DNA of 64,000 nucleotides, from contig NZ_JASHIU010000009.1 of assembly GCF_030733545.1 (NCBI RefSeq), positions 62,001-126,000 of the forward strand, given 5' to 3'. A program made the position numbers and the translations under genes. The stretch comes from Oceanicaulis sp. MMSF_3324. GTDB lineage: Bacteria > Pseudomonadota > Alphaproteobacteria > Caulobacterales > Maricaulaceae. Each line of letters starts with the position of its first letter. Position 1 is the first letter of the stretch. The notes beneath the pieces were generated by a model. It did not search any database and was not told where the DNA came from. It was given only the letters and a program-made list of their open reading frames with translations. This document shows positions 53,164-55,606 of the stretch, piece after piece.

Positions 53164-53406
53164 CTAGGCGCTCAGCTCGATGTCGTAATTTTCGATGACC
53201 GGATTGGCGAGCAGCTTGTCGCACATCTCGGCCACGCGGCTGTGCGCCTCTTCGGCGTCAGCAGTGTTGAGATCGATCTCGATCAGCTTGCCCTGACGCA
53301 CGCCCGCCACCTCGTCGAACCCCAGATGGTTCAGCGAGTTGGAGACAGCCTGGCCTTGCGGGTCCAGAACGCCGGGTTTGAGGTAGACATGAATGCGCGC
53401 TTTCAT
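53164..53406 (-). CDS. purS: FGAM synthase subunit PurS
   Basis: The 80-residue PurS bridges PurL and PurQ. It reads [20 protein letters not shown], then [20 protein letters not shown] and [19 protein letters not shown], a full-length PurS. The ATG overlaps the purC stop by 4 bases, and purQ starts 30 bases further on. Confidence 0.96.
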
Positions 53407-54164
53407 TCCGGAGACCCCTCTTCGGTAACGGAACCGTTTTCTTTCATGATGCCGAGGCGGCGGGCCACCTCTGCGTAGGCTTCGGTCACATTGCCGAGGT
53501 CGCGGCGGAACCGATCCTTGTCGAGCTTCTCATTGGTGTGGGCGTCCCATAGACGGCAGCTATCGGGGCTGATCTCGTCGGCCAGGATCACCCGCGGCAT
53601 GTCGTTCTGGTCATAGACGCGACCAAATTCGAGCTTGAAGTCCACAAGACGAATGCCGACAGCCATGAACATGCCCGACAGATAGTCGTTCACCCGCAGC
53701 GCCATGGCGATCATCTCGTCCATATCCTGGGTGGTCGCCCAGTTGAACGCGGTGACGTGTTCTTCGGCCACCATCGGGTCTTCCAGCGCATCGTTCTTGT
53801 AATAGAACTCGACGATTGAGCGCGGCAGCGGCTCGCCCTCGGTCAGGCCGAAACGCTTGGCGATGGAGCCGGCGGCGACATTGCGCACCACGACTTCAAG
53901 CGGAATGATCTCGACTTCACGCAGCAATTGCTCGCGCATGTTCAGCCGTTTGATGAAGTGGGTCGGGATGCCCATGCGACCCAGATTCTCCATCACATAT
54001 TCGGAGATCCGGTTGTTCAGAACGCCCTTGCCCTCGAGCACGGCTTTCTTCTGGGCGTTGAAGGCGGTGGCGTCGTCCTTGAAATACGCCACGACGGTGC
54101 CCGGTTCGGGCCCTTCGTAGAGGATCTTGGCCTTGCCTTCGTAAAGCATCTTGCGGCGGGACAT
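53403..54164 (-). CDS. purC: SAICAR synthase PurC
   Basis: The enzyme condenses CAIR with aspartate (purine step 7). From ATG 54164 (GAGCGAGG upstream) it has 253 residues with [79 protein letters not shown] and [21 protein letters not shown] longer in-frame extension to 54263 lacks family similarity. It is the first gene of purC-purS-purQ-purL. Confidence 0.97.
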
Positions 54165-54477
54165 CGGCAGCCTCGCTCCGGCTAATGGCGCGCTGCAAGC
54201 GCGCGAGTGGGGCGTTGGCCCGCTGTGATGTCGCTGGGAACAGAGACGCCGCGCCCGGGCCATGCCATGAGAAACGCGAAACGGCCCGTCGCCGCGGGCC
54301 GCTATCGTGGCGCCTACATACGCGAGGCGGGTCTTTCTATCAATATCTGTGCTGACCCTCGCGGTGAAGTCTGAGGTTTGAGGATCCGGTATTGCAACTC
54401 ATAGTTTGTTGATCGAGTATGAATGTTCCTATAGCGATATTTATACGCAGCTTTTGCGTGCTTTAGGGAGGAAGAAT
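54165..54477. other. Divergent intergenic region purC / small peptide gene
   Basis: This 313-base region has no gene. Two hairpins lie in the purC leader: GCGCGC-tgcaa-GCGCGC (54188-54204) and CGGCCCG/CGGGCCG (54282-54301). The right third (after ~54390) turns strikingly AT-rich (tatagcgatatttatacg) and probably holds the promoter of the small peptide gene. No known riboswitch or PurR box was recognised. Confidence 0.5.
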
Positions 54478-54630
54478 ATGACTATTGTAAAAGCATTCGT
54501 TGCCGCACTGGCGCTGGTTTCATCTGCCTTGCCGATGTTTCAAGCATCGTCCATTTATGAAGTTCCGGCGCAAGCCAACTGGTGGAACATCTGCGAGATT
54601 CTGCCAAACCCTCTTTGTGACAAACACTAA
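54478..54630 (+). CDS. Small exported peptide (50 residues), AT-rich gene
   Basis: The start at ATG 54478 is supported by an excellent ribosome-binding site (AGGGAGGAAG, 5-6 bases upstream). The peptide has a signal-like hydrophobic N-terminus (TIVKAFVAALALVSSALPMF) and a short remainder, VPAQANWWNICEILPNPLCD, with two cysteines 8 positions apart and a Trp pair. Codon use and base composition are clearly AT-richer than the neighbours. It is followed by a long perfect hairpin. I recognise no family. A secreted signal, toxin or bacteriocin-like peptide is possible but unproven. Confidence 0.6.
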   Translation: MTIVKAFVAALALVSSALPMFQASSIYEVPAQANWWNICEILPNPLCDKH

Positions 54631-54640
54631 ATAAGCGCAT

Positions 54641-54685
54641 CAATGGCGTAAGGCGTGATGCACTCCATCAAGCCTTACGCCATTG
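54641..54685. repeat. Long perfect inverted repeat (hairpin) after the small peptide gene
   Basis: CAATGGCGTAAGGC and GCCTTACGCCATTG are perfect 14-base arms; inside them TGATG and CATCA extend the stem after one mismatch, leaving a 5-base loop (CACTC). There is no T-run on either strand, so it is not a typical intrinsic terminator. Confidence 0.8.
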
Positions 54686-54737
54686 AAATAACCCGGCACT
54701 TGGCGTACGAAATTCCAGTCAACAGAGGACTGCCGCC

Positions 54738-55058
54738 ATGTCAGGTTTTGAGGATCGCGAAAACGCGTTCGAAAACAAATTCGCTCATGATCAAGAGCTT
54801 GAATTCAAGGCTGTTGCGCGCCGCAACAAGCTTCTGGGTCTTTGGGCCGCCGAACTTATGGGTCTGACCGGTGAGGACGCCGAAGCTTACGGCAAGGACG
54901 TCGTCAAAGCCGATTTTGAAGAAGCCGGTGATGACGATGTGTTCCGTAAGGTGCGCGGTGATTTTGACGCGCGCGGCATCGAGCAGAGCGACCACCAGAT
55001 TCGCAACAAGATGGCGCAGCTTCTCGAAGAAGCGCGCGGCCAGGTTCGCGAATCCTGA
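54738..55058 (+). CDS. F1-ATPase inhibitor zeta subunit-like protein (DUF1476)
   Basis: The 106-residue, highly charged helical protein reads SGFEDRENAFENKFAHDQEL, EFKAVARRNKLLGLWAAELM, and ends in NKMAQLLEEARGQVRES, matching DUF1476. In Paracoccus denitrificans this family is the zeta subunit, which inhibits ATP hydrolysis by the F1FO-ATP synthase through its N-terminal helix. It is specific to alphaproteobacteria. Not near atp genes here; monocistronic, with a strong terminator. Confidence 0.9.
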   Translation: MSGFEDRENAFENKFAHDQELEFKAVARRNKLLGLWAAELMGLTGEDAEAYGKDVVKADFEEAGDDDVFRKVRGDFDARGIEQSDHQIRNKMAQLLEEARGQVRES

Positions 55059-55075
55059 TCGCAATGATTGGAATG

Positions 55076-55110
55076 GAAAACGGCGGCGCAGGCTCTGCGC
55101 CGCCGTTTTC
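55076..55110. terminator. Bidirectional terminator between DUF1476 and thioredoxin-like genes
   Basis: The 15-base perfect stem GAAAACGGCGGCGCA/TGCGCCGCCGTTTTC has a 5-base loop and T residues on both strands. Confidence 0.9.
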
Positions 55111-55123
55111 ATGTCTGGGGCGG

Positions 55124-55606
55124 TTAGAGTCCAAACGCCTCCCGGTCTTCAATGATGTCGAGGGCGTAATCGAGGGCGCCAGCGATATCGTCCTCGGAAT
55201 ACCGGGCTGTGATCCGCGCCAGAACATCCTGGGTCTCGCGATCGATCAGCAATACGAAGCCTGTGCGGCCTGACGCGGCGTCATATGCCGAGGCGATGCC
55301 GGCCTCACGGGCGCGATCGGCGAGCGCATCCCGTCGTCCAAACGAACTGTCAAACCGGACGCGGTCCAAGGGCGCATCGGCGTATTCACTGATGACCCGC
55401 TCATATCGCGGTTCGAGTATCTTGCAGGGTCCGCACCAGTTGGATCGAAAGAGAGCGGCCACGAGACGCGGCGGAGCAGCCTCGGCCTGCATATCTGTTT
55501 GGGCTGCGGCCGATGAGGGCATGGTGAGCAGCAATGCCCATGCAAGCAGGAGCAGGCTTGGCCAGGCGATGGGGTTACGCATGGATATGGCGGCGACCTT
55601 TGTCAT
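55124..55606 (-). CDS. Exported thioredoxin-like protein (WCGPC)
   Basis: The 160 residues have a signal peptide (WPSLLLLAWALLLTMPSSAA) and a thioredoxin-like domain with the classical active site FRSNWCGPCKILEPRYERVI, then FDSSFGRRDALADRAREAGI and TGFVLLIDRETQDVLARIT. The cis-Pro loop expected in thioredoxins is hard to see (GRTGFVLL), so activity may be unusual. The start is only 4 bases after the stop of the aspartyl-protease gene, indicating one operon. ATG 55582 is an alternative start. Confidence 0.82.
   Translation of the reverse strand: MTKVAAISMRNPIAWPSLLLLAWALLLTMPSSAAAQTDMQAEAAPPRLVAALFRSNWCGPCKILEPRYERVISEYADAPLDRVRFDSSFGRRDALADRAREAGIASAYDAASGRTGFVLLIDRETQDVLARITARYSEDDIAGALDYALDIIEDREAFGL

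Follow-up and report, generated by a model that had tools for sequence, protein, structure and literature searches.

An AT-rich insertion between purC and the F1-ATPase inhibitor zeta gene carries a candidate orphan gene for an exported peptide

Background

The divergent pair formed by purC and the gene for the F1-ATPase inhibitor zeta encloses a short segment that raises a simple question in the genome studied here: is the small open reading frame (ORF) within it a gene, and how did it and the long hairpin that follows it come to lie between two conserved neighbours? The original prediction, made from the letters of the window (the whole 64-kb stretch of DNA that was analysed), had described this segment as AT-rich, as unlike anything else in the window, as resembling small secreted peptides in its product, and as the best candidate there for an undescribed element. 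The genes that flank it are:

53403..54164, minus strand: purC (SAICAR synthetase), conserved divergent neighbour; family match at E 3.2e-84
54738..55058, plus strand: gene for the ATPase inhibitor subunit zeta (PF07345), conserved neighbour; E 4.5e-45

On balance, we favour an account in which some 300 bases inserted in this lineage alone contain a young orphan gene whose product is exported, and in which the hairpin derives from the promoter flank of the neighbouring zeta gene. The finding is real but modest, and is not a new kind of system.

Results and discussion

Composition of the segment and the empty site in relatives

The AT-rich character of the segment in a GC-rich window was borne out. 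The G+C content of the insert is 0.468, against 0.625 for the window as a whole, and scans of the entire 64 kb in steps of 10, with scan lengths of 150, 250 and 312 bases, all placed their minimum in the insert region (0.42, 0.44 and 0.45, respectively), which is hence the AT-richest stretch of the window. In composition, then, the segment is indeed unlike anything else there; the same claim fails for the length of its perfect stem, as longer perfect stems of 17 pairs (338-374) and 16 pairs (55076-55110), A/T-flanked and terminator-like, occur elsewhere in the window.

For the comparison of spacers, 94 zeta loci were used: the window's own, 13 from genus relatives and 80 from contigs (the best 80 of 505 confirmed candidates), with at least L047 and L085 duplicating the genus relatives L036 and L042. 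Within the genus, the zeta gene was found in 14 of 15 genomes, the present one included. Retention of the loci with a divergent purC within 1500 bases gave 85 of the 94, leaving out eight without a purC match in the stretch examined (including the genus relative L046) and L064, with its gap of 2662 bases. The genus is thereby represented by 12 comparable relatives, with one genome per species.

The gap between the starts of purC and zeta measures 573 nt in the window and 195-292 nt in all 12 of these relatives; in the other 72 retained loci it is 146-368 bases, with the exception of L062. The spacers of L034 and L035, the nearest relatives, closely match that of the window as far as CTGTGCTGA (window 54347-54355), as does the start of the zeta gene, and the distance from the predicted -35 box of purC to that of zeta (TTGA) is 39 nt in both, as opposed to 339 nt in the window. 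This difference in spacing, combined with the shorter gap in every comparable genus relative, indicates that the ORF lies within a net insertion of some 300 bases that is specific to this lineage:

54356..54665, no strand: net insertion specific to this lineage, about 300 bases long and flanked by the promoters of purC and zeta; its right boundary is approximate
54683..54711, plus strand: predicted zeta promoter, TTGAAA-N17-TACGAA, with a -35 box in which the right arm of the hairpin ends

The comparison was anchored on the promoters in preference to a MAFFT alignment of the three spacers, which had put the gap inside the ORF and the zeta leader. A TTGA...TA box is found upstream of zeta in all 13 genus regions, the window included (N17 in 12 of them, N18 in L041), and, at a spacing of 15-19 within the last 130 bases, in 48 of the 85 regions, a figure that comes without a chance control. 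A strict sigma-70 scan yielded no promoter on either strand of 54100-55200 and missed the predicted purC and zeta promoters too. If these predictions are right, the insertion left both flanking promoters in place.

Two minor observations concern the spacer. The gap of 1176 bases in L062, an alphaproteobacterial MAG, implies that extra DNA has been taken up by this spacer elsewhere too. Near the left end of the insert, 54365-54384 bears an ungapped 20-base resemblance to the zeta leaders of L034 and L035, equalled by 10 and 13 of 500 shuffles, respectively; it might be a trace of partial duplication, or chance.

The small ORF

The features at the start of the ORF, and the ORF itself, are as follows:

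54409..54435, plus strand: weak promoter candidate upstream of the small ORF, TTGATCG-N12-CCTATAGC, from a scan with a Caulobacter-type consensus
54465..54473, plus strand: Shine-Dalgarno (SD) sequence AGGGAGGAA, with its GGAGG core 6 nt from the ATG
54478..54630, plus strand: small ORF of 50 aa, signal-peptide-like and orphan, read from the sequence, with no family match and no convincing homologue

The frame of 50 residues with a signal-like start was confirmed, as was the ribosome-binding site that had been called excellent. The ORF is complete, running from an ATG at 54478, preceded by the SD sequence, to a stop codon at 54628-54630; a TTG at 54406 in the same frame would give an alternative product of 74 aa. 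The candidate promoter, found with a consensus for Caulobacter-type promoters, is not significant, in that 80 of 300 shuffles score equally well.

Codon use in the ORF is unusual for the genome: its GC3 is 0.52, compared with a mean of 0.76 for the 37 long ORFs of the window, and values as low occur in 0.6% of 3000 sampled native stretches of 50 codons. The zeta gene (54738-55058) likewise has a low GC3 (0.60) for the genome.

To gauge how far such a frame might arise by chance, 54354-54737 was dinucleotide-shuffled 2000 times. ORFs of 45-90 aa appeared in 1174 of the shuffles, a 5-base SD match in 27 and a signal-like start in 36, and all three together in one. Of the window's 201 ORFs that start with ATG and measure 40-90 aa, the small ORF is the only one with both an SD sequence and a signal-like start. 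The rule for these two features was our own and was fixed after the small ORF had been seen. We conclude that the ORF is probably translated, as judged from its sequence.

The predicted peptide

The original prediction of a secreted product finds its counterpart in a lysine at position 5, a hydrophobic core and an AQA cleavage-like site at residues 31-33, from which the following product would result:

54577..54627, plus strand: predicted mature peptide of 17 residues (34-50) with two cysteines, following the AQA site

These features suggest that the peptide is probably exported, with the 50-residue precursor passing through the Sec pathway and being cut after Ala33 to release the 17-residue peptide, whose two cysteines could pair in a disulfide bond, either in the periplasm or extracellularly. 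A single-sequence AlphaFold model of the peptide was poor (pLDDT 61) and was set aside. Small Sec-exported peptides with a disulfide are a general kind, and the predicted product shares with them a short N-region, the hydrophobic core, an AQA-like site and two cysteines in a short mature part. It differs from them in having no family match, and its gene adjoins purC and zeta instead of exporter, immunity or processing genes.

Searches for relatives of the peptide and the insert

Searches of Pfam, NCBIfam, PHROGs and PADLOC assigned the peptide to no family, and no PDB sequence matched it at E<=10. Viral contigs and phages yielded no relative, and plasmids gave a single match, at E=4. In 385 genomes of the class and 398 of the phylum (overlapping samples), it recovered itself alone at E<=0.01. 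Within the collections searched (genomes, phages, plasmids and viral contigs), the ORF is thus without a detectable homologue.

Among 99 relatives, matches at E<=1 were obtained in 25 genomes, the present one included, in 31 rows besides the ORF itself, the best at E 0.03. Of these rows 29 were read, none of them convincing, the other two being without a locus, and the weak plus-strand rows outside the six that were read in context were judged by eye. The C-terminal resemblance extends to WW and the following cysteine in L014 and L020, and to both cysteines in L014. The matches in L014, L020, L012, L006 and L007 were rejected as chance, because a far longer open frame runs across each of them, in a different frame or on the opposite strand; that in L028, overlapped by two longer frames, was rejected likewise.

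At the DNA level, 137 family genomes were searched with the insert, and 15, its own included, gave a match at E<=0.1. The matches in the other family genomes cover 18-35 bases at E 0.003 or weaker and were taken as chance, among them those of 23-25 bases to 54630-54657 in G105, G106, G176 and G035 (E 0.003-0.06), which were examined in their surroundings. There was no plasmid match, and the one phage match, 23 bases of a Prevotella phage identical to 54638-54660 (E 0.1), has no hairpin partner there and was also taken as chance. Rfam gave nothing at gathering scores across the whole window and nothing at E<=1 in 54160-54740.

The original prediction had spoken of a recently acquired or fast-evolving small secreted peptide. 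What stands of this is an insertion absent from 12 genus relatives, an unusual codon use, and an SD sequence and signal-like start beyond chance; what does not is conservation of the frame in relatives, the lack of which had been named beforehand as decisive against the proposal, and of which none has been found so far. What the compared relatives lack is the whole insert, and that is a different matter from losing the frame.

It is possible, and in our judgement distinctly less probable than a gene, that the insertion is real and the ORF a chance frame, that is, non-functional AT-rich DNA in which a purine run happens to look like an SD sequence and the frame happens to encode hydrophobic residues. 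The missing homologues and the unconserved frame agree with this, as do a promoter candidate no better than shuffles and a length that on its own is common in shuffled DNA (1174 of 2000). Against it stands the conjunction of length, SD sequence and signal-like start, seen in one of 2000 shuffles under post hoc criteria. The chance reading keeps its place because there is a single genome, which affords no test of selection on the frame.

The hairpin

The ORF is followed by the two arms of a long hairpin:

54640..54660, plus strand: left arm, which we infer to be a probable inverted copy of the right arm
54666..54686, plus strand: right arm, resembling the ancestral sequence beside the zeta -35 box

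The inverted repeat does begin 10 bases past the stop codon, as had been claimed; its perfect outer run is uninterrupted for 15 pairs and not 14, and over its full length it forms 20 of 21 pairs around a loop of 5. Folded as DNA, 54625-54700 gives -23.4 kcal/mol (z -8.9), and none of 200 shuffles folds as well.

The right arm is identical to the zeta flank at 15 of 21 positions in L035 and 11 of 21 in L034, with 9 of the last 10 bases identical in both, and at 9-12 of 21 in the other ten genus members. An alignment of 54630-54737 to L035 outscores all 500 shuffles, while that to L034 is equalled by 19 of 500. The left arm, taken as its reverse complement, fares similarly (12 of 21 in L034 and 14 of 21 in L035, against 11 and 15 for the right arm). 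Since the right arm occupies the proper position of the flank, it is read as ancestral and the left arm as its inverted copy; that the left arm is such a copy is thus probable, mainly from the comparison with L035, the direction being taken from position. Template switching can make quasi-palindromes and inverted copies, and the present case resembles these in that one arm is like the ancestral flank, and the other, separated from it by 5 bases, is very nearly its reverse complement. It differs from them in arriving with about 300 bases of unrelated DNA.

A standard intrinsic (Rho-independent) terminator was ruled out: none was found on either strand of 54100-55200, and the right arm is followed by AATAACCC, which has no T-run. 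A search for the hairpin elsewhere in the genome, as had been suggested, returned no further copy, the second of its matches being the same hairpin read on the opposite strand, and a multi-copy repeat (REP, MITE) is thus not in evidence. Six exact matches to the hairpin pattern in viral contigs, a count without chance control, were discarded, as none had the other arm alongside on folding. Being single-copy, and with no repeats or mobile-element ends about it, the hairpin is better explained as the zeta promoter flank copied in inverted orientation than as the undescribed element that had been proposed.

The same data make it unlikely that the segment is a small non-autonomous mobile element or cassette (MITE, integron cassette or REP-like) ending in a hairpin. 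The compactness and AT-richness of the insertion, its terminal hairpin and its absence from relatives would suit such an element. Its hairpin, though, occurs once and has a right arm that looks like neighbouring DNA; the sole other match of the insert in its own genome (31 bases, 84%, E 0.04, within the ORF region) was taken as chance, and the 136 other family genomes gave the short, weak matches described above. Nor was there a flanking direct repeat of at least 8 bases around the insert, or an inverted repeat joining its ends. The core boxes of attC are RYYYAAC and GTTRRRY, neither of which occurs on the plus strand of 54601-54730; as the two are mutually reverse-complementary, this search covers both strands.

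A type I toxin-antitoxin-like module, with a small hydrophobic peptide, a structured mRNA and an antisense RNA, is very improbable: the size, the hydrophobic N-terminal half, the intergenic place and the strong hairpin near the stop would fit, but the databases of protein families and Rfam are silent at the thresholds given above, the N-terminus is better read as a cleavable signal peptide, and the sigma-70 scan was promoter-free on both strands (which counts little, the purC and zeta promoters having been missed as well).

A proposed history of the locus

Under the account that we favour, an AT-rich net insertion of about 300 bases would, in this lineage only, have separated the -35 boxes of purC and zeta, which had stood 39 bases apart, and it would carry a young or recently acquired orphan gene. 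The hairpin would have arisen by inverted duplication of the zeta -35 flank, for instance through template switching in replication, and would now lie between the new gene and zeta. In RNA, it would form a strong stem right after the stop, which may protect the 3' end of a small mRNA or slow read-through into zeta. The origin of the inserted DNA, the direction of copying, the disulfide and the role of the hairpin are points that we infer. A more ambitious version, in which the insertion brought a gene for a secreted disulfide peptide, the same event copied the zeta -35 flank, and the hairpin couples the gene to expression of the F1-ATPase inhibitor, so that its birth is datable to one species, seems to us quite improbable.

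If the ORF is translated, this is a clean instance of one lineage gaining an exported micro-peptide within a core locus, with the empty site in the nearest compared species, and it would be useful for studying the origin of small secreted genes; if it is not, the segment is ordinary inserted intergenic DNA. The hairpin, for its part, illustrates that a promoter flank copied in inverted orientation can resemble a regulatory element when read by eye.

Taxonomically restricted (orphan) bacterial small ORFs are the subject of a report on E. coli O157:H7 (PMC4765031). Such ORFs are likewise short, with no homologues found and with a plausible start and SD sequence; the present one, a prediction from sequence, differs in its signal-like N-terminus and the clear empty site in relatives.

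A further hairpin lies on the purC side of the spacer. On the minus strand, at 54280-54301, just downstream of the predicted purC promoter, a G+C-rich hairpin is followed by a T-rich stretch, and by eye this motif is present in the 13 genus regions; a role as purC leader or attenuator is possible.
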